Virus record (IMG/VR): IMGVR_UViG_3300042319_000282
Span: 1 to 25,394 of that record
From: a virus
Reading direction: 5' to 3' (one strand)
DNA length: 25,394 nucleotides
The position numbers and the translations under genes are program-made. Below the pieces are notes generated by a model that was not told the DNA's origin, searched no databases, and was given only the letters and a program-made list of their open reading frames with translations. Below are positions 2 to 25,394 of the stretch, piece after piece; positions within the stretch are counted from its first letter, which is position 1; every line of letters starts with the position of its first letter.

Positions 2-190
2 AACAATATTTATAATACCGTCAAATTTATCTAAAGAAAACTCACGTGTTATTCTATCTCTGGCCAAAAATATATCGTGTCGTTTTATGCGGTTCCATAA
101 AGTAGTGTTTTGTTGTTCTGCATTTTGTACATATTCTACTCTTTGGTTTTCTTGACTTGCTGATTCTGCTGTTTGATTATGTATTTGGTC
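2..190 (-). CDS. Open -1 frame extending the membrane protein (partial, runs off window)
   Basis: Read in the -1 frame from the slippery site, 63 codons are open without a stop to the left window edge. The translation looks like real protein: an acidic/Gln-rich linker (QTAESASQENQRVEYVQNAE) and then a mixed segment (LWNRIKRHDIFLARDRITRE). There is no ATG or GTG in this frame before the edge and only an internal TTG near 65-67. Independent initiation is therefore less likely than entry by frameshift from the upstream frame. It overlaps the zero-frame 3' end over 136-190. Confidence 0.5.
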
Positions 191-1278
191 TTTTTTTTTG
201 AATCGTCGATTTGTTCTTGTGCCCACTTGGCAGCCTCTTCGGCGGCTTCATTGTCTTGTGCTGGTGGAAAGTCTGTTTCAAGCACAGGTTCCGATTTAGC
301 CACGATGGGCGTGGTATTGGTGAAATGATCAAATGGTTTTAACAAGTAAGGATGTTTGTCAAATACAGTGTCTTTAACTTCTGGTTCATTTTTAACAATG
401 CTGGATTTTTCAAACATCCACCCTGCTGGATGCGGATCTACAGATTCTTTTATCTGATCAATTTGTTCATCGGTTAGCGGGCCGTCGTCTGGCTCATATG
501 CTGGTTTAATTTTTTCTTTTTCTTCTTTCAACCAACCAAAGGTCATTTGAGCGGCTAACAGCATGATAACTGCCAACGGATCAAACACAATAACAATAAG
601 GATAATGACCCAAGTGACTGCCTTCTCAAGAAGGTTGGCATCCGTATTGTCGCCATATACAAATGCCGCAATGTATTTTATTGGACCAACTTCGGCTTCT
701 ACTTTGCGAATCTCGGCGGCAATCGGTGCTCGCTCTTCAGCAAGTATGCTAACTGTTTTCTGTTCGGCGGCAATCTCGGATTGAAGGCGAGCACGTTCTT
801 TTTGTTGTGCTCGTCGTAGTGCAACTGCTTTGTCAGCACCTTTTTCGTCTTGGCTTCGACCCATAACTTGGTCCACAGCCTCATCCATCTGTTTAAGAGC
901 CTTACGGTTGACATCTATATTATCCTTGGCTGTTTTAATTTTTTCATCATAGATAGCAATCTTGCTGGTTACATCGCCTGACACTAGACTTTGATCACTG
1001 TGTGCTTTACTTAAGAATCCAAAGATGCCCATGCTGGTAATAAACATCAGTACCAACACCGCAGTGGTCATGTAGATTTTCATCAACGCAGGAGCACGAT
1101 GCCAATTTTCTTTTAACCAACTTGCACACACTAATTTGGCTACTTCTAAACTGCCACCCATAATATAGATAGGAATAGCGGCAGCGGCAAAGATAGCGGC
1201 AAGACCGATGACAGAATAATAAATGGCCACTGCTGATATAATCAGGCCAGTGGCCAACAAAAGCACTGCTAATATCAT
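136..1278 (-). CDS. Phage membrane protein with central coiled coil (zero-frame product)
   Basis: A 380-residue protein I do not recognise by family. Residues about 1-22, 23-45 and 68-90 are strongly hydrophobic and read as membrane segments. Residues about 100-198 are charged, helical and coiled-coil-like, rich in K, E, A and Q. A fourth membrane segment lies at about 221-247, and the tail is acidic and Pro-rich. This topology suggests an inner-membrane protein with a long helical domain between the third and fourth segments. The gene starts at ATG 1278, 7 nt after the stop of the upstream virion-like gene. Oddity: near the 3' end, codons 361-363 (AAA AAA AAG) form an in-frame A_AAA_AAG slippery heptamer. 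The -1 frame beyond it stays open to the window edge, while the zero-frame tail is short and Lys/Gln-rich. The true full-length product may therefore be a frameshift fusion. Function is unknown. Confidence 0.8.
   Translation of the reverse strand: MILAVLLLATGLIISAVAIYYSVIGLAAIFAAAAIPIYIMGGSLEVAKLVCASWLKENWHRAPALMKIYMTTAVLVLMFITSMGIFGFLSKAHSDQSLVSGDVTSKIAIYDEKIKTAKDNIDVNRKALKQMDEAVDQVMGRSQDEKGADKAVALRRAQQKERARLQSEIAAEQKTVSILAEERAPIAAEIRKVEAEVGPIKYIAAFVYGDNTDANLLEKAVTWVIILIVIVFDPLAVIMLLAAQMTFGWLKEEKEKIKPAYEPDDGPLTDEQIDQIKESVDPHPAGWMFEKSSIVKNEPEVKDTVFDKHPYLLKPFDHFTNTTPIVAKSEPVLETDFPPAQDNEAAEEAAKWAQEQIDDSKKKTKYIIKQQNQQVKKTKE
190..196 (-). other. Candidate -1 ribosomal frameshift site (A_AAA_AAG)
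   Basis: On the minus strand a run of nine A (plus-strand T at 191-199) is followed by G. In the frame of the membrane protein the codons read TCA AAA AAA AAG ACC, which contains A AAA AAG in the X_XXY_YYZ phase used by bacterial -1 programmed frameshifting, as in dnaX. A -1 slip here enters a frame with no stop for 63 codons, up to the window edge. A true frameshift mutation or a homopolymer assembly error would look the same. Confidence 0.55.
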
Positions 1279-1975: not shown

Positions 1976-2296
1976 TCACTTAAAGATGATCAAAGCCATT
2001 AACATTGCCTGTACAAAGAATCCAAAGCCAATGGTAATGATGTTCAACAAATCTTTAGCAATAACTGATCGCACAAAAAACGTAAACAGACCCAGCCACA
2101 TTAGGGCAATCATGTCAACCGGTGGTAATTTTTCAGTTAGCCCTGTTAATACTGCAATCAAGGTAGGAATAGTGGCTAAATGTACCAGTATAACTCCAAC
2201 CCAGCCCAATGTTTCTGCTGACAAATGCCCAATGTTCTCTGTAACACTGTCGCGCATTTTCTTTAAATTTACCAATTCTCTCAAACTAACTTGCAT
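1976..2296 (-). CDS. Small polytopic membrane protein, unknown function
   Basis: 106 residues with three hydrophobic segments (about 29-50, 61-80 and 82-104) after a short amphipathic N-terminus (SLRELVNLKKMRDSVTENIG). It sits directly downstream of the SleB-type hydrolase gene, with a spacing of about 9 nt. A small multi-spanning membrane protein beside an endolysin could be a holin or antiholin, but I see no diagnostic motif, so that role is inference only. The start ATG at 2296 is preceded by AAGGAAAA. Confidence 0.65.
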   Translation of the reverse strand: MQVSLRELVNLKKMRDSVTENIGHLSAETLGWVGVILVHLATIPTLIAVLTGLTEKLPPVDMIALMWLGLFTFFVRSVIAKDLLNIITIGFGFFVQAMLMALIIFK

Positions 2297-2305
2297 GATT
2301 TTTCC

Positions 2306-2836
2306 TTATTTGTAAAATACGTGTCCGCCAATTTGGGCTACTTTTTCTCTATCCCATTTTGGATTTATGTGTGTAGCATGAAAATACAGAGCATTTTTCA
2401 AACTGGGCAGTCTAAAATTTTCCAACAGTACCTGACGTGCTACTAACTCACTTTCTCGAAATACTGCGATGTTTTTTGGTTTAACACCACTGGCTTGCTG
2501 ACAGTACCAACTGAATTGGCAAAGTACCTTTTCGTAAACTACGTTCTTTTGATAGACCACTTGGCAGATATCTTTTGGAAATTTTCCACTTTCTGCACGA
2601 TTGATAGTGACCTGGGCCACTGCTACTTTACCTTCGAAGGACTCGCCTCCTGCTTCAAAATAGATATTTTTTGCCAGACATTCTAACTGTTTGTTTCTAA
2701 CATCTGCTGTGATAACACTAGTTGACATTGTCAACTGCTTTGCTGGATCAAGTTTATACTTGATTGCTTTGTATCCAATAAATCCTGCTACTGCTAGACC
2801 TATCAATACAAGTAAGACTTTTATGAAAATTTTCAT
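2306..2836 (-). CDS. SleB/CwlJ-type cell wall hydrolase (endolysin-like)
   Basis: 176 residues. An N-terminal hydrophobic segment (about 5-22) acts as signal-anchor or signal sequence. Residues about 50-175 match the Hydrolase_2 (SleB/CwlJ) family. The family signature NIYFEAGGESFEGKVAVAQV carries the presumed catalytic Glu, followed by the TINR element. Downstream, QFSWYCQ and ALYFHATHINPKW are typical family motifs. Enzymes of this family cleave peptidoglycan glycan strands. With the N-terminal anchor, export by the host Sec system as a SAR-type endolysin is plausible. It is followed by a small membrane protein that could assist lysis. It starts at ATG 2836 with AAGGAAAA upstream. Confidence 0.9.
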   Translation of the reverse strand: MKIFIKVLLVLIGLAVAGFIGYKAIKYKLDPAKQLTMSTSVITADVRNKQLECLAKNIYFEAGGESFEGKVAVAQVTINRAESGKFPKDICQVVYQKNVVYEKVLCQFSWYCQQASGVKPKNIAVFRESELVARQVLLENFRLPSLKNALYFHATHINPKWDREKVAQIGGHVFYK

Positions 2837-3362: not shown

Positions 3363-3692
3363 TTACGATCGATTGGCTACTAGGGTCAACATGTCTTCGT
3401 AATCCATACCGCTGAGTTGATCTCCCAACTCCATTACACAGTCTTCGGCTGTTTCCCAACCCGATATACCCAAAAGTTCATAAACTTCGCGTTTAGATAC
3501 TTCTTCTGCCCGCATGTAGCATACCCAAAGTACTGTGACAAATCCCAAAGTGAAAATTGTTTCTTGGTCAACTACGTAGTGTCTCTCGGCCCAATCAATA
3601 GTTTGATTGAGATAATAGTTTAAATCTTCCAGACGATTTTCCATCTGTGCTATCCAATATTGAGTGTCATTCCTAGTCCAATATTTTGTCAT
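3363..3692 (-). CDS. Unknown protein coupled to iscA
   Basis: 109 residues, acidic, rich in Trp, Tyr and Glu, with no recognised domain. The N-terminus ([20 protein letters not shown]) is helical, the centre has a hydrophobic stretch (about 46-62), and the C-terminus is acidic. Its ATG (3692) overlaps the iscA stop in an ATGA junction, so it is translationally coupled as the third gene of the iscU-iscA string. The coupling may hint at a shared role, but nothing in the sequence proves one. Only two Cys (about 58 and 85), so it is not an obvious Fe-S protein. Confidence 0.65.
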
Positions 3693-4009
3693 ACTCTGAA
3701 ACTTTCACCACATCCGCAACGATCACGTTCATTTGGATTGCGAAACTCGAAACCTTCATTCAGCCCGTTTCGAACCCAATCCACTTCCACACCTTGGATA
3801 TACGCAAGACTTTTTGGATCAACAAATAACTTGCATCCCTGGCTTTCAAAACATTGATCGTCTGTAGTTAGACTATCTACATATTCCAACACATAGGCAA
3901 GGCCACTGCATCCTGTAGTTTTTACACCTAGTCGGATGCCCACACCTCGTCCACGTTTAGTCAACTGCTGTTTTATTTTTTTAGCCGCTGTGTCGGTTAC
4001 GGTAATCAT
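3689..4009 (-). CDS. iscA: IscA/ErpA-family A-type Fe-S cluster carrier
   Basis: 106 residues, the standard length for A-type carriers. It begins [12 protein letters not shown] and carries the three invariant cysteines: Cys34 in TTGCSGLAY, and Cys98 and Cys100 in DRCGCGESF. The family receives Fe-S clusters or iron from the IscU/IscS system and passes them to apo-proteins. The start at 4009 lies inside the 3' end of iscU (29-nt overlap), so the two are translationally coupled. IscA, ErpA and SufA are hard to separate by sequence alone; IscA is chosen because iscU is immediately upstream. Its neighbours are phage genes rather than a full host isc cluster: no iscR, iscS, hscB, hscA or fdx is present here. 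Confidence 0.93.
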
Positions 4010-4367
4010 TTACGGCTGCTTTGATGGCATCTTCAGCCAATATTGAACAATGTATCTTAACTGGCGGTAGGGCTAGTTCTTCGGCGATTTCGGAGTTTTT
4101 AATTGCTCCGGCTTGGTCAAGTGTTTTTCCTTTGACCCATTCCGTAATGAGGCTTGAACTCGCGATAGCCGATCCGCAGCCATACGTTTTAAATTTTGCA
4201 TCTGTAATAATACCTGTATCATGATCAACCTTTATCTGTAGTTTCATTACGTCGCCGCAAGCAGGTGCGCCAACCATACCAGTACCAACACTAGGATCAC
4301 TCTTGTCAAAAGATCCGACATTCCTGGGATTTTCATAGTGGTCTACAACCTTATCTGAGTATGCCAT
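3981..4367 (-). CDS. iscU: IscU Fe-S cluster assembly scaffold
   Basis: 128 residues, the same length as bacterial IscU. It begins [20 protein letters not shown] and keeps [29 protein letters not shown] and the C-terminal [19 protein letters not shown]. Cluster ligands are Cys37, Cys64 and Cys107, with Asp39. LPPVK (100-104) is the motif by which IscU binds the HscA chaperone, so the product should plug into a host ISC machinery. I start it at ATG 4367, overlapping the upstream stop as TAATG; an in-frame TTG at 4379 would add four residues absent from the family. It is remarkably close to cellular IscU, suggesting recent acquisition or strong constraint. In the phage setting it is a candidate auxiliary metabolic gene. 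Confidence 0.96.
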
Positions 4368-4666
4368 TATTGTGTACAAGTCCTTTCACGATAGACTTGT
4401 CCATCGGAATTTTGTATTTCTTTCCACTCAGTACAAACTGTTTGACGTTGTATGATTACTGACTGCGGTGGTTGTACTATTATAGGAGACTGTTGATTCT
4501 CTCTAGCAATTACTGCACCTGCGATTCCGCCAATGACCAACGGTGCTACCCAGTAACCAAAGCCTGGACCCGCATGACGATGGCCATGATGACGCCAGTG
4601 ATGATTATGTTGAGCGAATGCTGTGGCACTGACCGTTAGTAACAGAACAGTTAAAAGTTTTTTCAT
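4367..4666 (-). CDS. Secreted His-rich glycine-zipper-like protein
   Basis: 99 residues. A clear Sec signal peptide (MKKLLTVLLLTVSATAFA, cleavage before Gln19) is followed by a His-rich stretch (HNHHWRHHGHRH), a Gly/Ala-rich hydrophobic segment (VAPLVIGGIAGAVIA) resembling glycine zippers, and a C-terminal region with two Cys (TVCTEW and ERTCTQ) that could form a disulfide. It should act in the periplasm or outer membrane. The His cluster could bind a metal, which would suit its position just upstream of iscU (TAATG junction), but metal binding is inference. RBS AAGGGG precedes ATG 4666. A late-like TAAATA lies at 4693-4698. Confidence 0.75.
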   Translation of the reverse strand: MKKLLTVLLLTVSATAFAQHNHHWRHHGHRHAGPGFGYWVAPLVIGGIAGAVIARENQQSPIIVQPPQSVIIQRQTVCTEWKEIQNSDGQVYRERTCTQ

Positions 4667-5649: not shown

Positions 5650-5946
5650 TTAATCTGCAAATACAGTCGAAGATCCTGAAGTTATCGATCCAGCATCAGC
5701 CGAATCCCCAACTCGGGCAATAGGTTTACCATTGACAAACACAGTGCCTGATCCTGAATTAACAACAGCAGTATGAGTAACCGAACAACCCGTGCCAGTC
5801 AATCTGTGAACTACTGTAGGATCGCCTTGACGCTCAACACCTAATCCCTCAACAAACACATCACCCGATGGCCCTGTGAGTGTTGTAGTTCCGTCACATC
5901 CATGACCTGTAGAAATTGAATCACCGATTCTTGCTATTGCTGGCAT
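5650..5946 (-). CDS. PAAR-repeat spike-tip protein
   Basis: 98 residues with PAAR hallmarks. The start is MPAIARIGDSISTGHGCDG. Repeated short beta turns follow (VEGLGVERQGDPTVVHRL, then NGKPIARVGDSADAGSITSG). His and Cys residues (H15, C17, H47, C54, H58) are suitable for metal coordination. PAAR proteins form a conical metal-stabilised tip on the gp5-like spike of contractile tails and on type VI VgrG trimers. The presence of one supports a myovirus-type contractile tail. It lies just downstream of a Sm-like-looking ORF and glutaredoxin, so virion and metabolic genes are mixed here. RBS AGGATA is just upstream. Confidence 0.9.
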   Translation of the reverse strand: MPAIARIGDSISTGHGCDGTTTLTGPSGDVFVEGLGVERQGDPTVVHRLTGTGCSVTHTAVVNSGSGTVFVNGKPIARVGDSADAGSITSGSSTVFAD

Positions 5947-5950
5947 AATA

Positions 5951-6268
5951 TTATCCTGTTACAATACTGCCCGCTGATACAGGTTGTATACCAGTGGTTT
6001 GAAATGTATATTGATCTGCTACTTCTTTGGCTGTTTCGCCTTTGGTCATAACCAGTTGTTTGTTGATACCGTAGTTCTTATCCGGATCGGTAGTCATCAT
6101 CAACGGTGCAAACGCAGGCCCCTTGGCAGTCATGGCCAACATCAAAGGTCTACCCACCACCAATTCTGACATGTCTTCACTGACATATTTTCCAATTATT
6201 TCTTCACCTGAGGTGATTTTAAGTGATATGATATCACCAACTGCAAATTTTGATTTTTCAAATAACAT
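5951..6268 (-). CDS. Unknown protein with possible small beta-barrel N-terminus
   Basis: 105 residues. The segment from about residue 9 (VGDIISLKITSGEEIIGKYV, then DMSELVVGRPLML) has the strand-turn-strand rhythm of a Sm/LSm-like or similar small beta-barrel. That resemblance is weak and rests on pattern, not a recognised motif. The C-terminal half is helical and acidic with a Thr/Gly-rich end. The start overlaps the glutaredoxin stop (TAATG), so it is part of the nrdA-nrdB-grx transcription string, with the PAAR gene next. Function unknown. Confidence 0.65.
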   Translation of the reverse strand: MLFEKSKFAVGDIISLKITSGEEIIGKYVSEDMSELVVGRPLMLAMTAKGPAFAPLMMTTDPDKNYGINKQLVMTKGETAKEVADQYTFQTTGIQPVSAGSIVTG

Positions 6269-6525
6269 TAAATTTCTCCGTCTCCGTATCCTACTATATT
6301 ATCACGGTCTAATAATTTTTTAAGATCATTAAATCCCCCAATGACATCGCCATTGATTACAATTTGTGGCAATGTTCTAGCAGCAGGTATGTGTTCCAAC
6401 AACTCTTCTTTAGTCCAACCGTCGCCTATTTTACGCTCTTCAAAGGTAATATTTTTTTGTTGCAACAATGACTTGGCTTGATCACAATACGGGCAATGAT
6501 ATTTGCTCCAAACAACAACTTTCAT
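6268..6525 (-). CDS. grx: Glutaredoxin
   Basis: 85 residues with a thioredoxin fold. The dithiol active site is CPYC at residues 11-14 (SKYHCPYCDQAKSLL), the cis-Pro loop is TLPQIVING, and the GG element that closes the glutathione site is IGGFNDL. It would reduce ribonucleotide reductase, whose large subunit ends in a C-x2-C pair and is encoded just upstream in the same operon. Its ATG follows directly on the stop of the 56-codon ORF (TAAATG). A classic phage arrangement (compare NrdC of T4). Confidence 0.93.
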   Translation of the reverse strand: MKVVVWSKYHCPYCDQAKSLLQQKNITFEERKIGDGWTKEELLEHIPAARTLPQIVINGDVIGGFNDLKKLLDRDNIVGYGDGEI

Positions 6526-6696
6526 TTAATTTCCTCTTTCAATTTCAACTAATGTTCGGGTGTCGCCTGCCAGTTGTTCAACAACTTGCTGTAGTGCAGA
6601 TATATTGTCGTTGTCCATAATTGCAGTCATGTCGGCACCGTCGGGCAACAATGTGCTGATTTTAATTATTATAACTTCTTCATTTAGTTTTGCCAT
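6526..6696 (-). CDS. Small acidic protein between nrdB and grx, unknown function
   Basis: A 56-residue ORF, MAKLNEEVIIIKISTLLPDG at the start and LVEIERGN at the end, with an Asp-rich centre and a helix ALQQVVEQLAGD. It fits exactly between nrdB (9 nt upstream) and grx, whose ATG abuts its TAA. That tight packing and a good ribosome site (AAGGAA) support it as real. It has no Cys, no membrane segment and no recognised domain. Confidence 0.65.
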   Translation of the reverse strand: MAKLNEEVIIIKISTLLPDGADMTAIMDNDNISALQQVVEQLAGDTRTLVEIERGN

Positions 6697-6704
6697 ATTT
6701 TTCC

Positions 6705-7805
6705 TTATAATGCGGGTAATTCTTCGTAGTTTACACTGTCACTCATAATGCCAATAACATAGTTAGTGCTTTCGTTTTCTTGCAGTGCAGTTTGTTTCTT
6801 GCTGGTGTCCACGTGTTTATTGAACCACGGGATTGGTGTAGTCTTGGGCGCGGTGTTCCAGTATTTAATACCAACGTCTTTCAACGCTGCCACTGCTGTA
6901 TAATCTACAAAGTCTTTCAGTATGTTGGCATTTAGACCAATCACCGGTCCTTTTTGGAATAGATAGTCTGCCCACGCTTTTTCTTCTTGTATAACGCCTT
7001 TGTACAATTCAATCACCTCTTGTTCGCACTCGCGAGCAGCCACTACAAATCGAGGATCTTCCTTAACCACTTGGTTGATCAAATAGGCAGTCCACCCTTT
7101 GTGTAGCAGTTCGTCTTGCAGAATCAGACTGATGATGTTGCCGTTGCCAATGAAGATCTTGTTCTCAACCATGGCCAAACTAGTAGCGAACGATACCATG
7201 AAGCGGAATGCCTCCAAAGCGTAACTGGCGTGTAGTGCCAACCAAACGGCTTTAACGTGTTCCTTCTCAGTGACTTCCATGCCAAGTTCTTTGCGGCAGT
7301 TGATAGCGTGTAACTTGTCATAGTAGTTGCCCACACTTGATGCCATGTCTACAATTTCTTTGGTATCATGGATGGTGTTAAACACATCCTTGGGCACATT
7401 ATAAATGTTACGAATGATATGACTGTAACTCTTGCTGTGAATGTTAGTTTCAAAGAAACCCCAGTTGTACATCAGTGCTTCAACTTCGGGCAGACTACAA
7501 ACAGGAGTGAATACCTGTGTTGGTCCACGACCTTGCAAACTATCAAGTGCTGTTTGACGTAACAAGTTGCTGGTAAAGATATGCTTGACAGCATCGCTGG
7601 CATCTTTAAAGTCATTTGCATCTTTACTAAGACTAATTTCTTCTGGTTGCCAGAAGAAGCCACGGGCTGTAGCATCGAAGTCTGCAATCTTTTTATATTT
7701 GACTTCTTCGAAGCGTTGGATAGTAACTGGCCCTGCTGGATCTAGAAACATCTTACGGCTTAGATAGTCTGTCTTTGTTGTTAAGTTGTATTGTTGTTTT
7801 GACAT
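6705..7805 (-). CDS. nrdB: Class I ribonucleotide reductase, small (radical) subunit NrdB
   Basis: I start it at ATG 7805 (366 residues, MSKQQYNLTTKTDYLSRKMF), 4 nt after the nrdA stop; an in-frame ATG at 7847 would overlap nrdA by 38 nt. It is a ferritin-like four-helix protein. Ligand candidates are Asp88 (QTALDSLQG), Glu119 and His123 (FFETNIHSKSY), Glu198 (YALEAFRF), and Glu232 and His235 (DELLH). The radical Tyr is Tyr127. Oddity: between Glu119 and His123 there are three residues, whereas E. coli-type NrdB has two (E-x2-H); all other ligand spacings match. It forms the tyrosyl-radical partner of NrdA in dNTP synthesis. It sits in an operon with nrdA, a 56-codon ORF and grx. Confidence 0.96.
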   Translation of the reverse strand: MSKQQYNLTTKTDYLSRKMFLDPAGPVTIQRFEEVKYKKIADFDATARGFFWQPEEISLSKDANDFKDASDAVKHIFTSNLLRQTALDSLQGRGPTQVFTPVCSLPEVEALMYNWGFFETNIHSKSYSHIIRNIYNVPKDVFNTIHDTKEIVDMASSVGNYYDKLHAINCRKELGMEVTEKEHVKAVWLALHASYALEAFRFMVSFATSLAMVENKIFIGNGNIISLILQDELLHKGWTAYLINQVVKEDPRFVVAARECEQEVIELYKGVIQEEKAWADYLFQKGPVIGLNANILKDFVDYTAVAALKDVGIKYWNTAPKTTPIPWFNKHVDTSKKQTALQENESTNYVIGIMSDSVNYEELPAL

Positions 7806-7809
7806 AGTT

Positions 7810-10131
7810 TTATAATTTGCATGATTCGCAATCTTCTTCGTCATCAAAGTTGATAGGCTCTAACATAGTAGGAGCATCTTCTGCAACAGCCTTGCTACCT
7901 GCCTTGTTGATTAGACTGTAGTAGAATGTTTTCAATCCCCATACGTGTGCCTGCATCAAGTTCTTGGCGATCAATGTAGTTGGCACTTTACGATCTGCCC
8001 AGTGTGCAGGATTGTAAAATGTGTTTGTTGAAATACTTTGGTCGACATAGGCGGCAAGAACTGCTGCGGTTTTTAGGTATCCAACGCAGTCCTTTTGTTC
8101 CCACATCATTTGATATTTGTTTTTCAGTTTGGCATATTCAGGAACAACCTGAGTGAATGACCCTGCTTTTGATTCCTTGGTACTGATCAAACTCATGGGC
8201 ATTTCAATGCCATTGGTTGAGTTAATAACAACACTGGAACTTTCTACAGGGGCAATGGCCATCAATGTGGCATTACGCACACCGTACTGCTTCATATTAC
8301 CACGTAGTGATTCCCAGTCTAGTTCCGGAGCGAAGTCTACTAATTCATTAACTCCCTTGGCACGTAGTTCCCAGGGGAATACGCCTTGACCGTATCTAGT
8401 TTTGTGACTTTCTGTACATGGGCCACGCTCTTTGGCCAACTCCACTGTGGCTTCTGTTAGATAATAGGCCTGATGTTCCATCCATGTCTTAACTTCTTGC
8501 AGTGCATCTTTGTCGCCATACTTTAGGCCACGCTTGGCATGCCAGTAGGCCAAATTGGTAATACCAATGCCCAACGGTTGTATCTCGTCATTACTCAATT
8601 TACTTTGTATTGACAAGAAGTCTTGATAGTCAAGAATGTTACACAGGCTACGCTGTAGAATCCTGCAGGCTCTACGCATATCCTCTGGGTTCCGGAACGA
8701 TCCCCAGTTGATAGATCCCAGTGTACATAACGCTATGCGGCCACTGTCGTCGTCTAATCGTTTGAATGGACGTGTGGGTAATAGGATCTCACAGCACAAG
8801 TTACTCTGATATATCGTATGATATTCAGGATCAAAGGGTCCTTGACTCATTACATTGTCAATGAACACCAAATAGATTCGACCGGTGTCTGTGCGTTCTT
8901 TCAGTATACCACTCTTGAACACTTCTTCGGCGCTCATCGTTTTCTTACGGAGGCCTTTTTGTTTTTCATATTTTACATATAGTTCTTCAAACAATGCAGT
9001 GTCTTTGTAAAATGCTTCATACAAGTCTGGCACTTCATTGGGGTCAAAGAAAGTTATGTCTTCTTTGTTTTTAAATCGTCTCCAGAAGAAAGCACTAAGC
9101 ACAACCCCATAATCCATATGACGGACTCGGGTTTCTTCTGTTCCTTGGTTGTTCTTAAGAACAATAAGATCATCAAACTGATGATGCCAAATAGGATAAA
9201 ATACAGTAGCACTTGCATTACGAATACCTCCCTGCGAACATGATCGCAAATCACCGAACCATTTTTTCAGGAAAGGTATCATACCTGTGTGCATAATCTC
9301 ACCACCTCTGATGGGACTACCCAACGGACGTAAGCGTCCTATCTCCAAACCAATGCCCGCTCGCTTGCTGGCATACTTGGCCATCATTTCCCCAGAGGCA
9401 AAAATAGAGTCCAGATCGTCATCGCTACGAATAAGAACACAGGAACTAAACTGTTTGGTAGGAGTACCAAGGCCAGCAAGTACAGGAGTAGCAAGAGTAA
9501 AAAGACCATCACTGGCGGCGTTGTAATACTCTTTGATATAACGCATACGTGCTGAGTTAGGTTCTTCTTTATGGAATACAGTTGCGGCTGCAACCATGTA
9601 ACGAATTTGTGGAGTTTCATATGTCTGTTTAGTACTACGATTCTTAACCAAGTACTTCTCAATCAACTGCTCAATGGCAGCATAACTGTACTGTTCATCT
9701 TTTTCATGATCCAGCATGTCATTCATCTTGTTCCAGTCTTCTTCACTATACCACTCGAGCAGTTCGCTAGTATACAGTCCAGTGGCCACATTGGTCTTGA
9801 CGATAGAATAAAGATCTGGCACTGTGTAACTGCCATAGATATCTTTGCGTAACATGCTAAGGCGTTGTTTGCCCGCTACATATTGATAGTTAGTATGCCC
9901 AACATCTGGATTAGATTCTACATCAATAAGATCCACAATGGCACGTAGTGTTATTTCATCTATTTCTCTAGTAGTGATACCGTCGTAGAAATGAGGTTGC
10001 GCTTTGATCTCAATCATGCTTTGACTGACATCGGCAATGTTTTTACATACTTTTGCTATCTGAGTTTGCCATTTTTCAATGGTCAATTGCTCACGTTGAC
10101 CATTTCTCTTTATTACTGTTATGTTGTTCAT
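7810..10131 (-). CDS. nrdA: Class I ribonucleotide reductase, large (catalytic) subunit NrdA
   Basis: 773 residues, the usual length. An N-terminal ATP-cone (about 1-95, ITVIKRNGQREQL) suggests allosteric activity control. Active-site residues are visible: Cys231 (QFSSCVLI), Asn444/Cys446/Glu448 (SNLCCEI), Cys469 (IALCTLGSIN), the tandem Tyr737-Tyr738 of the radical path (KTFYYSL), and a C-terminal C-x2-C (Cys768, Cys771) that shuttles electrons from glutaredoxin. It reduces ribonucleoside diphosphates to deoxy forms. First gene of the nrdA-nrdB-ORF-grx operon, preceded by a TATAAATA box and an AT-rich 173-nt spacer. No intein or intron is seen. Confidence 0.98.
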   Translation of the reverse strand: MNNITVIKRNGQREQLTIEKWQTQIAKVCKNIADVSQSMIEIKAQPHFYDGITTREIDEITLRAIVDLIDVESNPDVGHTNYQYVAGKQRLSMLRKDIYGSYTVPDLYSIVKTNVATGLYTSELLEWYSEEDWNKMNDMLDHEKDEQYSYAAIEQLIEKYLVKNRSTKQTYETPQIRYMVAAATVFHKEEPNSARMRYIKEYYNAASDGLFTLATPVLAGLGTPTKQFSSCVLIRSDDDLDSIFASGEMMAKYASKRAGIGLEIGRLRPLGSPIRGGEIMHTGMIPFLKKWFGDLRSCSQGGIRNASATVFYPIWHHQFDDLIVLKNNQGTEETRVRHMDYGVVLSAFFWRRFKNKEDITFFDPNEVPDLYEAFYKDTALFEELYVKYEKQKGLRKKTMSAEEVFKSGILKERTDTGRIYLVFIDNVMSQGPFDPEYHTIYQSNLCCEILLPTRPFKRLDDDSGRIALCTLGSINWGSFRNPEDMRRACRILQRSLCNILDYQDFLSIQSKLSNDEIQPLGIGITNLAYWHAKRGLKYGDKDALQEVKTWMEHQAYYLTEATVELAKERGPCTESHKTRYGQGVFPWELRAKGVNELVDFAPELDWESLRGNMKQYGVRNATLMAIAPVESSSVVINSTNGIEMPMSLISTKESKAGSFTQVVPEYAKLKNKYQMMWEQKDCVGYLKTAAVLAAYVDQSISTNTFYNPAHWADRKVPTTLIAKNLMQAHVWGLKTFYYSLINKAGSKAVAEDAPTMLEPINFDDEEDCESCKL

Positions 10132-10304
10132 TTGTTTTCTTGATAAGGAAAATATTTATACCCCTTGACATTATTAGTTTAATTAGTTGAGGTTAGAAAA
10201 TATTGTTCAAAATCAAATGGTTATAAATTTATCAAAATTGATTTATGTACTATACTGTATATGTATATTTTAATACATTACTATAATTATTGCAATTGAT
10301 CTGA
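10132..10304. promoter_or_regulatory. AT-rich intergenic control region upstream of nrdA
   Basis: 173 nt, the longest non-coding gap in the window and strongly AT-rich. It contains a TATAAATA box on the minus strand at 10153-10160, 21 nt before ATG 10131. It also has several TA-rich tracts (around 10245-10285, including TACAGTATAGTACA on the minus strand) that could be further promoter or operator sequence. I see no convincing stem-loop terminator for the tail-spike gene that reads into it. Confidence 0.5.
10153..10160 (-). promoter_or_regulatory. T4-late-type promoter box TATAAATA
   Basis: An exact TATAAATA on the minus strand, 21 nt upstream of the nrdA ATG. This is the full T4 late consensus. 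Confidence 0.5.
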
Positions 10305-11936
10305 TTAAGAAAGTGCCGAATATGTATAGACAAATTTACCATTGTCGCCGACGGTGCTGTTGGTATAACTCACAACCACCGTGTCCACGCTGCCACTACC
10401 GTCAGAATCCACAATGGCTGCAAAAAACTGTAGATTGGAATCTGCGCCAACAGTGCCTGTGAATTCATATTCGTCTGTAATCTGCAATCCACCGTTGATC
10501 GAATCCACTGCAATGTTCAATGTGCCTTTGCGCATCATTGTTTGAGCAGCGCCATTGCTGATGCTTTGATACATATAGTTCACCGCATAGGCAGCACTGG
10601 AATAGTAGGGCAATCTGAACAACGGAAATGCAAGAGTTTTTTGTACGATGTCAAGACTTCTAGCAAAATTGTTTGCAAAGGCCACAGTGCCATTATGGGC
10701 AGTAAAATATCTACTGCCGAAATTGCCTTCAGACATAGTCTCTGTTCTATCTGACCAATCTTGCACTGTGGCATTGCCGCTGGATAAAAATGATATATGG
10801 GCTGTAACAGCATTGAGATTGGTAGATCCATCATTGCCAACAAATGTAAATCTATTGCTTTTTGATGTATTACTGTCCCCGTTGGTAATTAAAAAACCTT
10901 CACGATCGATATTGCTAAATTTGCTGTTGCTGATCATGCAAAGCCTTGGGCCTAACAATTGACCGGCACCAAACAGATTGCTGTTTTGTCCAAAACTTGT
11001 ACCTCGATAACAAGTGTCAAATTCGCAGTGATCCCATATGCAGTAATTGATGTCGTAATCACTATAGATTCCATAACTAAACCCACTGACCTTGCATTGA
11101 GTAAAATACAAACGTTCGCAGGTAACAATGTCACTCACTGCCCTTAACGCAAATCCTACATTGTCAGTATTGCTGCCATCTAGACTAGACCACATTCCGC
11201 TAAATGCTATTTGATGAAACACACTGTCACGTACTGCGTCTAACTGCATCATAGTTTCTGTTGCTACGGTACTGTGTACACTGAATCCAACCATTGAAAT
11301 ATTCTTAGGTTGATTATTGTAGGTAGTACTGTTCAATGTGCTACGTAATGCCACTGTGGATGTGTCGTTAATAAAAATAAAAGCCGGTTGATTATGTGAA
11401 TGTAAGAATATAGTTTTTCCAATGCCAGCGCCTTTGATATTACAGTTGCTGGGAATATACACTGGAGCAGATAAAATATACGTGCCAGCGGGCACATCCA
11501 GTGTAACACGGCTGTCTGCGGTGTTGATAGTTGCTGGGTTTAAAAACAATTGATCAATGGCACGTTGTATTGCAACAGTGTTGTCAGTGCTGCCGTCGCC
11601 CATTGCACCAAAACTCAACGCAGACACGTAGTCGTCTAGTCTTTGATTTATACTGCGTTCGACTGGAAAGTTGGGGTCGCTGCCTGTCTGTACACTGCTG
11701 CCCAAAAAGTTTTTGTACACATACTGTTCGACAAAGTCCAACAGATTGTCATGTTCAGTTAATATCTTGGTATTGCCCACATAGGGCGCACCTTCTGCCA
11801 CTGCGCCGTTGCCCACAAACATCTCTTGTGTATCAACAGCCCATGCCATCTCGCCGCTGGCTAACTGTGGTAACCCTGAACCTTGATTTTTTTGTCCTCT
11901 ACGGACCTGTATTCTTGAAATTTGAACAACAGCCAT
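10305..11936 (-). CDS. Tail spike with pectin-lyase fold
   Basis: 543 residues. The N-terminus (about 4-50, ISRIQVRRG, then PQLASGEMAWAVDT and MFVGNG) matches the small beta domain found at the N-terminus of phage tail proteins such as the Bordetella phage Mtd. From about residue 105 the stretch VSALSFGAMGDGSTDNTVAI is the classic opening of the Pectate_lyase_3 parallel beta-helix, followed by VPAGTYILSAPVYIPSN and many short Asn/Ser-rich coils to about 400. The C-terminus is beta-rich. It likely binds or degrades a surface polysaccharide. The substrate and catalytic residues cannot be assigned. A late-like CTAAATA box lies at 11957-11963 with RBS AGAGGAT. Confidence 0.85.
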   Translation of the reverse strand: MAVVQISRIQVRRGQKNQGSGLPQLASGEMAWAVDTQEMFVGNGAVAEGAPYVGNTKILTEHDNLLDFVEQYVYKNFLGSSVQTGSDPNFPVERSINQRLDDYVSALSFGAMGDGSTDNTVAIQRAIDQLFLNPATINTADSRVTLDVPAGTYILSAPVYIPSNCNIKGAGIGKTIFLHSHNQPAFIFINDTSTVALRSTLNSTTYNNQPKNISMVGFSVHSTVATETMMQLDAVRDSVFHQIAFSGMWSSLDGSNTDNVGFALRAVSDIVTCERLYFTQCKVSGFSYGIYSDYDINYCIWDHCEFDTCYRGTSFGQNSNLFGAGQLLGPRLCMISNSKFSNIDREGFLITNGDSNTSKSNRFTFVGNDGSTNLNAVTAHISFLSSGNATVQDWSDRTETMSEGNFGSRYFTAHNGTVAFANNFARSLDIVQKTLAFPLFRLPYYSSAAYAVNYMYQSISNGAAQTMMRKGTLNIAVDSINGGLQITDEYEFTGTVGADSNLQFFAAIVDSDGSGSVDTVVVSYTNSTVGDNGKFVYTYSALS

Positions 11937-12686: not shown

Positions 12687-12715
12687 ATTTTACTATGTCA
12701 CATTAGTTATGTCAA
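12687..12715 (-). promoter_or_regulatory. Sigma70-type promoter, close to the start codon
   Basis: Minus strand TTGACA (12715-12710), 17-nt spacer, TAAAAT (12692-12687). The expected transcript start falls around 12680, next to ATG 12679, predicting a leaderless or nearly leaderless exonuclease mRNA. Confidence 0.65.
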
Positions 12716-13032
12716 CCTTGTCGGCGAGATGTAGCAGACTTGGCCATTTGTGCTACTTTGCTCTGGCCGCCACTTTGACCAGTGTCAGTTGAATCTTTTT
12801 TGGTTTTTATTTGCACTGTATTGTCATCGTATCTTTTGATATACTGTTTCAATACTTCACCTTGCGGAGAGTCCCACAGTCTTTTCAATCCGTCTAATGT
12901 CAATCCGGTGAAATCTGTGAAGGTGTTTTCTGCCCAATTATACACAGCCGATTGATCTGCAGCATCGGCCTGTTTCTGAATGGCTTCCAAAGAACCAATG
13001 ATATCTAAAATATCATTGGTTTCTTCTTTCAT
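12712..13032 (-). CDS. Unknown protein, helical N-terminus and basic tail
   Basis: 106 residues. The first 45 are acidic and helical (NDILDIIGSLEAIQKQADAA), then LTLDGLKRLWDSPQGEVLKQ, and the C-terminus is low-complexity and basic (SGGQSKVAQMAKSATSRRQG). It is joined to the 317-residue protein gene by a TAATG overlap. No family recognised. The pairing with a larger helical protein suggests a shared virion or scaffold role, but this is inference. Confidence 0.6.
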   Translation of the reverse strand: MKEETNDILDIIGSLEAIQKQADAADQSAVYNWAENTFTDFTGLTLDGLKRLWDSPQGEVLKQYIKRYDDNTVQIKTKKDSTDTGQSGGQSKVAQMAKSATSRRQG

Positions 13033-13985
13033 TACTTTTTTTTTGAGCCTAACATCAATCCCAGTCTACGGCTAAGATCAATGCTTTCACGTTGTTCTCT
13101 ACCTGCTGGTGATTCTTCTGATGAGCCGCCAATTGCTGGAGGTTCTTCAATGCCTGGTTCCATTTCAGGAGTTTCGGGAGGAGTCATCCCCATGCCTTGA
13201 GCATCTTCTTGTCCGGTCAAAATTCCAACAGCACCAGATAATGCTTGACGATTTTTTTCTAATGTAGTGTAAATCTCAGCCAATGCTGGTTTCACAATGG
13301 CTGCATATTTTTCACTGATCTCTGAGCCCATTTCATCTCTTATAGAGTCTAGTAATTCTAACATGTTTTCTGCTTGCATTGAAGCAGTGTCTTCTAACCA
13401 GCCTGTTAATTTGTCAACCATATCTTTACTGGCCATTATCAACTCTGCACGTTCTTCTTCGCCTTCTGTTAAAATGCGTTGTGCCTCTTTGTTGCCTGAC
13501 ATTTCTGCCATTAGTCTTGCCACTACGTATTGGGCTTGATCTTCATTCAATTCATTACGGATAACCAATTCATCGATTAAATCTCTAGCAGTGTCTTGCT
13601 GTTGACTCAAACGCCACACAGCAACTTTCAACCATTCATCGCTGACATTTTCCATAGCAGTGAATCGCTTGGCCATCTTGTCTGGATCTTTGTGCAATTT
13701 TTTACTTTCCATTTGTACGGCTTCTCCTAGTTCGTTACGTTCTTGAATAGCACGATTTATAACATCTAACAAACTGCGAGTCTTGTGATACGCATTAGAC
13801 TCCAGCATGGAATCATAACTTTCGTTTGTTTCGATAGTGTTAATAGAAGTTCGTAGTCGATTGCGAGCATCTTCTAGTTGTTCTAAAGTAAAAGTTTCTA
13901 AATTGACCTTATAGCCAAACGTTTTAGCCATGTTTTCATTCAAAACTTTGCTGTTTAATGATTTTCCGAATTCTTTGACCTGCAT
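13032..13985 (-). CDS. Helical phage protein, unknown function (possible scaffold or core)
   Basis: 317 residues, mostly alpha-helical and acidic, with a disordered Pro/Glu/Gly-rich segment at about 265-300 and a basic C-terminus (LGLMLGSKKK). The N-terminal part (VKEFGKSLNSKVLNENMAKT, then LEQLEDARNRLRTSINTIE) looks like a conserved helical domain. Such composition is typical of phage scaffold, prohead core or internal virion proteins, but I cannot assign one. It starts at ATG 13985 with a late-like AATAAATA box at 14009-14016. Confidence 0.65.
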   Translation of the reverse strand: MQVKEFGKSLNSKVLNENMAKTFGYKVNLETFTLEQLEDARNRLRTSINTIETNESYDSMLESNAYHKTRSLLDVINRAIQERNELGEAVQMESKKLHKDPDKMAKRFTAMENVSDEWLKVAVWRLSQQQDTARDLIDELVIRNELNEDQAQYVVARLMAEMSGNKEAQRILTEGEEERAELIMASKDMVDKLTGWLEDTASMQAENMLELLDSIRDEMGSEISEKYAAIVKPALAEIYTTLEKNRQALSGAVGILTGQEDAQGMGMTPPETPEMEPGIEEPPAIGGSSEESPAGREQRESIDLSRRLGLMLGSKKK

Positions 13986-25021: not shown

Positions 25022-25394
25022 ATGATAGATCTACAGCCATTCAATACTTTGATCGACACACTGAAAGCCCAAGGCAAGTATCGTGTGTTTAACGACATAC
25101 TACGTGAGAATGGAAAATTCCCACAGGCCATTTGGTACGGGCCATATGCTATCAAGAACATAACCAACTGGTGTAGCAATGACTATTTGGGCATGGGGCA
25201 AAACAAAGTTGTCATTGATGCCATGCGAACTGCACTAGACATGACTGGTGCTGGATCGGGCGGCACACGTAACATTGCCGGTACCAGTCACTATCATGTG
25301 GCCCTGGAACATGAGTTGGCTGGCCTACATCAGAAGCAACAATCCTTGCTGTTCAGTTCAGCCTATGTGGCCAACGAATGGACACTGATTGCTC
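25022..25394 (+). CDS. hemA: 5-aminolevulinate synthase (partial, runs off window)
   Basis: The first 124 residues of a PLP-dependent alpha-oxoamine synthase, cut by the window end. The ALAS-specific N-terminus is clear: KYRVFNDILRENGKFPQAIW, then ITNWCSNDYLGMGQNKVVID, TGAGSGGTRNIAGTSHYHVA, LEHELAGLHQKQQSLLFSSA and YVAN. Arg21, Asn53, Thr82 and Asn84 occupy positions matching residues used in ALAS for succinyl-CoA recognition. The enzyme joins glycine and succinyl-CoA to give 5-aminolevulinate, the entry to tetrapyrrole synthesis by the Shemin route typical of alphaproteobacteria. Relatives KBL, BioF and serine palmitoyltransferase lack this N-terminal pattern. The PLP lysine lies beyond the edge, so activity cannot be checked. 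An ALAS-like enzyme of C5N natural-product pathways is the main alternative. Confidence 0.9.
   Translation, partial: MIDLQPFNTLIDTLKAQGKYRVFNDILRENGKFPQAIWYGPYAIKNITNWCSNDYLGMGQNKVVIDAMRTALDMTGAGSGGTRNIAGTSHYHVALEHELAGLHQKQQSLLFSSAYVANEWTLIA

Follow-up and report, generated by a model that had tools for sequence, protein, structure and literature searches.

Does a membrane-protein gene at the end of a phage contig specify one product or two? The window analysed here, the whole of IMG/VR record IMGVR_UViG_3300042319_000282 (25,394 bases, a fragment), truncates a minus-strand gene at its left edge, and close to that edge the gene carries a run of nine A's. A preliminary description of the window had placed a dnaX-like heptamer, A_AAA_AAG, in this run in the phase needed for -1 slippage, and had left a choice between two products from one gene and a homopolymer error. 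The phase is as it stated: the ORF at 1278..136 reads ..GAC GAT TCA AAA AAA AAG ACC.., with A_AAA_AAG in phase. Programmed -1 recoding in phages is already well known. At this locus two products are the favoured reading, since 65 distinct sequences share the site, its phase and a -1 tail conserved as protein. We consider it probable that the sites described below are a programmed -1 recoding signal, that isoforms of the membrane protein arise from it through tandem tRNA-Lys slippage, and that the same 11-mer, TCAAAAAAAAA, serves in a second gene.

Coordinates are collected in Table 1. The zero frame ends, as had been described, at a TAG after 17 sense codons. The -1 frame is likewise open to the window edge with no ATG or GTG within it, but a GTG in that frame upstream of the site had been overlooked, as had the second site altogether. 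Runs of at least eight A or T number only two in the window, both of nine bases, at 191 and 13036, and the same two sites hold the only in-phase A_AAA_AAG heptamers in the window's genes, each opening a long -1 frame; site 1 is therefore more than a chance occurrence.

Table 1. Positions of the two shift sites, their genes and tails, and other features of the window
Feature	Position	Strand	Details
-1 frame tail, site 1	2..193	minus	63 codons past KKK to the window edge
Zero-frame membrane-protein gene	136..1278	minus	ORF, 380 aa; short isoform C-terminus ..SKKKTKYIIKQQNQQVKKTKE, stop
Zero-frame stop TAG	136..138	minus	read from the sequence
Zero-frame tail	139..189	minus	17 codons, overlaps the -1 frame; conserved KKK-(T/S)-Y-M-(T/I)-K-D...G-(Q/K)-I-(Q)-(I/V)-K-x-R
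Shift site 1, TCA AAA AAA AAG	190..201	minus	TCA 201..199, A9 199..191, A_AAA_AAG 196..190; T9 at 191-199 on the plus strand; minus-strand G at 190 after A9
GTG in -1 frame, upstream of site 1	224..226	minus	only candidate separate start; GAGG seven bases before it; not kept in more distant relatives
Small membrane protein	1976..2296	minus	106 aa; holin-like by appearance only
Cell-wall hydrolase (Hydrolase_2, SleB type)	2306..2836	minus	PF07486, E 2.3e-24; PHROG 938 endolysin, E 5.6e-21
IscA and IscU genes, adjacent	3689-4009 and 3981-4379	minus	each above the NCBIfam equivalog cut-off
PAAR-motif protein	5650-5946	minus	PF05488, E 2.7e-11
Class Ia ribonucleotide reductase alpha and beta, glutaredoxin	6268-10131	minus	beta ORF overlaps alpha ORF
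-1 tail of second site	12712..13044	minus	KKKVMKEETNDILDIIG..RRQG; ATG at 13032 in the window
Second shift site, TCA AAA AAA AA(G) TAA	13032..13046	minus	A9 13044..13036, G 13035, TAA 13034..13032; T9 at 13036-13044 on the plus strand; next ORF in the -1 frame
Second recoded gene, head/packaging-type virion protein	13032..13985	minus	317 aa; C-terminus ..LMLGSKKK, stop; PHROG 14154 'virion structural protein', E 2.6e-11, residues 167-260
Start of 5-aminolevulinate-synthase-like gene	25022-25394	plus	TIGR01821, E 2.2e-45, 117 residues; truncated by the right edge

Two contigs with other IMG numbers extend beyond the window edge: L002, identical over the gene, and L083, identical in the tail. 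Both have the same A9, and a single bad assembly is therefore not its cause. Leftward extension had been suggested as a check, and in these contigs the -1 frame indeed continues, to a stop 110 codons after KKK (in L002 the C-terminus is ..RISTYSEDELEHFAYYIYESRKTQSNNTAR, stop), which would give a full trans-frame product of about 473 aa.

A scan of viral contigs with the membrane protein yielded more than 590 relatives, of which 80 were kept. A second scan used the motif RIYELRK(N/D), about 100 codons downstream, with no selection for the shift site. Together the distinct loci bearing a tail numbered 70; measured against the membrane protein, the tail is in the -1 frame in 65 and in the zero frame in five; about half of the 65 came from the downstream-motif scan and hence were not chosen for the site. 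All 65 share the same junction, an in-phase A-run (A9 in 59, A8 in five, reading TCT AAA AAA AAG, and A11 in one). The slippery heptamer in phase is A_AAA_AAG in 64 of them and A_AAA_AAA in the other, and the zero-frame stop follows 19-22 codons after the start of the run. Comparison with homologues, also suggested beforehand, thus revealed a conserved slippery site, and in none of the site-1 relatives found was the tail a separate gene having its own start.

The tail exists in a short form of about 42 aa and a long form of about 107-115 aa, both with a motif resembling Y(V/I)QN.EQ..(T/S)(L/I)W. Long tails have 13 invariant columns (46 sequences) and are 35-70% identical to the tail of L007. 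With its last codons the long form runs into the beginning of the next gene, and the conservation of RIYELRKN is for this reason partly due to that gene. No convincing counterpart of the tail was found in cultured phages, in the phage collection, in Pfam or in PDB, and none at all in GTDB genomes; the relative of the membrane protein in Pelagibacter phage Mosig ends without site or tail.

Some relatives of the membrane protein have other arrangements. In a sister group (L012, L015 and L017) an A9 lies in another codon phase within the 3′ part of the membrane gene; the zero frame runs on for about 65 codons, and after a -1 slip a stop would come within few codons. In this group normal reading would yield the long product and slippage the short one, as in dnaX. 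In three relatives without the shift site (L020, L044 and L066), belonging to a sister group whose membrane part is the same, the C-terminal 100 aa are different and in frame; they match PHROG 11591 weakly (virion structural, head and packaging; E 4e-4 to 4e-5).

Is the tail translated? Judged by substitution patterns, it is conserved as protein and, away from the overlaps, subject to purifying selection; the short forms persist too. In the middle of the tail, outside both overlaps, the median pN/pS was 0.49, against 1.70 in a wrong-frame control and 0.23 in the membrane part, and the other two frames across this region hold on average 3.5 and 9.1 stops per 66 codons. Where the two frames overlap, pN/pS was 0.39 in the zero frame and 1.03 in the -1 frame, the latter lying between the values for coding and wrong frame, as is expected under double coding.

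Synonymous divergence among the relatives is near saturation, so that conservation at silent positions is informative. At site 1 synonymous variability is reduced, as at bacterial sites of -1 programmed ribosomal frameshifting. The serine codon before the run is TCA in 56 of 61 cases, against 24.9% elsewhere in the same genes. Three loci have CTA and one has CCA in its place, again with a final A, and in total the codon before the run ends in A in 60 of the 65 loci. For the third Lys, 64 of 65 loci use AAG, against 29.6% elsewhere; the conservation of its G is confounded, because the same base is the first of a conserved Asp/Glu codon in the -1 frame.

The second site lies at the end of a gene for a virion protein of head/packaging type, a relative of which is present in 27 of 30 related records. 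Across 18 distinct relatives it reads TCA (once CCA) AAA AAA AA TAA, with a third base of the last Lys or Asn codon that is G in 12, A in three and C in three, and the run is A9 or A10 in every one. The tail is conserved from KKK onward, and the more distant L225 and L226 (34% identical) keep the arrangement. For the second tail, scanned for with single sequences, there is no convincing match in the phage collection, Pfam or PHROGs. That a second gene has the same motif in the same geometry speaks for recoding, and the renewed use of the A-run in a head-protein gene points to a lineage-wide recoding signal, not a sequencing error.

Outside the two sites the motif is avoided. We counted it in 332 non-redundant ORFs with the sites cut out, taking the expectation from synonymous shuffling. 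In-phase A_AAA_AAG occurred 7 times against 30.0 expected, and the same letters in phase 0 occurred 75 times against 84.7; for A_AAA_AAC the ratio of observed to expected was 0.47 in phase, and 0.81 and 0.87 out of phase. This depletion, being mainly in phase, points to ribosomal slippage as the hazard avoided. A-runs of at least eight were also rarer than expected (17 against 42.5). Exclusivity was assessed in nine related records of 71,910 to 383,411 bases (1.72 Mb in total, partly redundant as some are near-copies), where 22 A-runs of at least nine were found, 19 of them at the two sites, with L007's CTA site and L180's CCA site assigned by coordinates. The same records contain 33 runs of exactly eight A's and 379 of exactly seven. 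In the 265,680-base and 191,095-base records the two sites are the sole A9 runs.

On these sequence comparisons, recoding of one kind or the other at the A9 tract is well supported and, we judge, highly probable. In the mechanism we prefer, most ribosomes would read through TCA AAA AAA AAG and stop 17 codons on, giving a membrane protein of 380 aa that ends in a short, Lys-rich tail. Some would shift back by one base within the A-run. Tandem slippage of tRNA-Lys at A_AAA_AAG is the likeliest route, with the overlapping A_AAA_AAA possibly a further slip position, and the tail of the slipped product (about 473 aa) would end in a small helical domain. At the end of the head/packaging-type gene the 11-mer would act likewise, with UAA directly after the run. 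Since selection acts on the extensions and the short forms also persist, the phage probably needs the two isoforms in a fixed ratio.

Several features of -1 programmed ribosomal frameshifting are present, namely an in-phase heptamer, a start-less conserved -1 ORF and a nearby zero-frame stop. Stimulators, which are frequent at such sites but not obligatory, were looked for as had been suggested, and neither a stem-loop nor a Shine-Dalgarno element was found. Windows of 50-80 nt starting 0-20 nt past site 1 gave no sign of a downstream hairpin or pseudoknot (mean z +0.1 to -0.5 against shuffled sequences), and a weak folding signal +40 to +60 nt past the site was little stronger than in upstream coding DNA. 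Good pairing with an upstream Shine-Dalgarno occurred in 19% of sequences against a background of 15%, which is no excess. At about +20 stands a purine-rich AAGGA able to pair with the anti-SD; it comes after the site, however, and mostly has no -1 start behind it. In E. coli a bare A_AAA_AAG yields about 0.3%, and at best 3.7% through the 3′ context (PMC4066793).

The best-surviving alternative is programmed transcriptional slippage, in which RNA polymerase would add an A (or drop two) on the A9 and messages with A10 would give the long protein. We regard it as a serious competitor, if on the less likely side. Bacterial RNA polymerases slip on nine A/T, a length that many bacteria select against, and IS elements exploit A8/A9 tracts in this way (PMC1088944; PMC5009743). 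A conserved homopolymer of about nine or more, as expected of transcriptional slippage sites, is present at both phage sites. The A of TCA lies outside the strongest heptamer yet is conserved, even within CTA or CCA; site 2 tolerates AAG, AAA and AAC but never has fewer than nine A's. The conserved A of TCA and the run length at site 2 both fit slippage by RNA polymerase driven by run length. Conservation attaches to the nine-A run more than to the heptamer, and for that reason polymerase slippage is possible; the missing stimulators and the overall depletion of long A-runs favour it as well. Against it, in-phase A_AAA_AAG is depleted far more than the phase-0 letters, and a polymerase could not sense phase. 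Moreover, both sites share a codon phase, AAG is usual in both, and the five TCT variants at site 1 have A8 only, yet with A_AAA_AAG. With these variants and the heptamer in phase at both sites, it is most likely the ribosome, rather than RNA polymerase, that slips. The sequences show the phase, the conservation, coding in both frames, the lack of starts and the exclusivity of the motif; the slippage itself, its agent, and the ratio and any function of the isoforms we infer.

Phase variation at the DNA level is very improbable. Here replication slippage would toggle the run between A9 (short form) and A10 (long form) within the phage population, which would account for the contigs with the tail in frame: L097/L098 and L141 have A10, and L039 has A9 after TCT. 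When one A is omitted from these in-frame contigs the old zero-frame tail becomes recognisable by eye, and they could be real variants or homopolymer slips of assembly or sequencing. Distinct loci of this kind are few, whereas 65 have the -1 arrangement, and the zero-frame tail is conserved in the remaining loci.

Still less credible is an overlapping gene in which the tail would have its own start, in the window the GTG preceded by GAGG. Such a gene would also suit the ATG that overlaps the stop at the second site of the window, and the remote L227, where a stretch related to the second tail (2354-2710) is an ORF with ATG starts and no A-run. However, when the -1 frame is followed from its preceding stop to the conserved QN.EQ motif, ATG, GTG and TTG are all absent from 48 of 52 non-redundant site-1 loci, the window's own clade being among the four exceptions. 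In the five TCT variants this frame reads TAA exactly at the site, which leaves no point of entry upstream of it. The relatives at site 2 have GTA AAT GAA, GTA ATA GAA or GTA ACT GAA instead of the window's ATG, and in 16 of 18 distinct relatives no start codon occurs up to and including the point where the conserved tail begins. The missing start codons and the TAA at the site refute a separate gene for most relatives, and such a gene would leave the conserved A9 unexplained. Least probable of all is the error raised in the preliminary description, a sequencing or assembly slip in a single continuous gene at a nine-base homopolymer with contig ends close by, given that contigs from many metagenomes, identical as well as diverged, agree in the A9 and in the relation of the frames, and that the zero-frame tail is conserved under purifying selection, with its stop position.

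How does the proposed recoding compare with known systems? The E. coli dnaX gene has the same heptamer in phase and likewise gives two products of one gene; there the slip leads to the shorter product, and an upstream Shine-Dalgarno and a downstream hairpin are used. The term dnaX-like is apt for the heptamer but calls for caution, since at phage site 1 the slip would lead to the longer product and neither stimulator was detected. Transcriptional slippage in Thermus dnaX and in IS elements also uses a tract of eight or nine A's of conserved length, where bases are added or lost (PMC1088944), whereas the phage tract keeps one codon phase, usually with AAG, and A_AAA_AAG is avoided elsewhere mainly in phase. 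Transposase genes of the IS1/IS3 type (A_AAA_AAC, A_AAA_AAG) resemble the phage genes in having an A6 heptamer near the 3′ end of ORF 1 and reaching ORF 2 by a -1 shift; the phage genes are structural and membrane genes, not transposases, and their tails of about 40-120 aa are accessory domains. The lambda-type G/GT tail-assembly chaperone is a phage example of a -1 shift near the 3′ end with a C-terminally extended product. In that system the first ORF encodes a tail chaperone and lies near the tape-measure gene, whereas here the first gene is for a membrane protein near a cell-wall hydrolase and the second for a head/packaging-type protein, and searches of Pfam, PHROGs and PDB found no similarity of the recoded genes to tail-chaperone families. 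Capsid and tail virion proteins of phages T3/T7, A2, A118 and PSA occur in two forms through frameshifting (PMC5009743), and these extended proteins are the closest precedent for the second site. The phage tail domains have no Pfam or PHROG match, hence no Ig-like match.

Four transmembrane segments are predicted from the sequence of the membrane protein, the third and fourth separated by a long helical coiled-coil stretch. L097, a relative of 507 aa that is naturally in frame, gave a model (mean pLDDT 67.6) with helices at 2-57, 64-141, 145-208 and 216-258, followed by a low-confidence disordered stretch and small terminal helices, and the site-1 tail modelled alone forms four helices (pLDDT 69). 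Sequence searches of Pfam, PHROGs and PDB with the membrane protein and the tail gave nothing above cut-off or convincing. DUF4407 (PF14362) reached at best 21.1 bits in a relative, against a gathering cut-off of 31.3, and was not listed for the window protein; a Pfam match to Tetraspanin fell below the curated cut-off. Foldseek matched only generic coiled coils or uncharacterised phage proteins.

In both the window and L007 the neighbours of the gene are a cell-wall hydrolase and a small membrane protein. The latter has no family match in Pfam or PHROGs, and the similar gene of L007 stands at the same place. In Pelagibacter phage Mosig the relative of the membrane protein adjoins a putative glucosaminidase. 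That the membrane protein acts in lysis or the cell envelope is a guess, and a doubtful one. Other genes in the window (Table 1) include a PAAR-motif protein, possibly a tail-spike tip. In L007 the region 7718-11031 encodes a full DnaK (above cut-off), beside which Hsp20-, ClpS- and heme-oxygenase-like proteins were recognised by eye, and L002 also has the start of dnaK.

A family of uncultured large bacteriophages appears, from its sequences, to make two versions of one membrane protein, whose gene would join the short list of recoded phage genes. In the open-access literature we found no report of -1 recoding in this membrane-protein family or of one motif common to two genes; here one signal occurs in two genes and hardly anywhere else. 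Ordinary gene finders, being unable to join frames, would truncate both proteins, leaving two conserved phage domains unrecorded. The sites also provide a natural test of the capacity of A9 with A_AAA_AAG without stimulators. More speculatively, and to our mind improbably, the lineage may reserve the 11-mer as a recoding signal for two unlinked genes, purging long A-runs elsewhere, so that both yields are set jointly. If this is true, the state of host tRNA-Lys, the polymerase or a phage factor would set the yields of both long isoforms without RNA stimulators, and the shared control would couple two steps of the infection cycle, one involving the membrane protein and the other the head protein.
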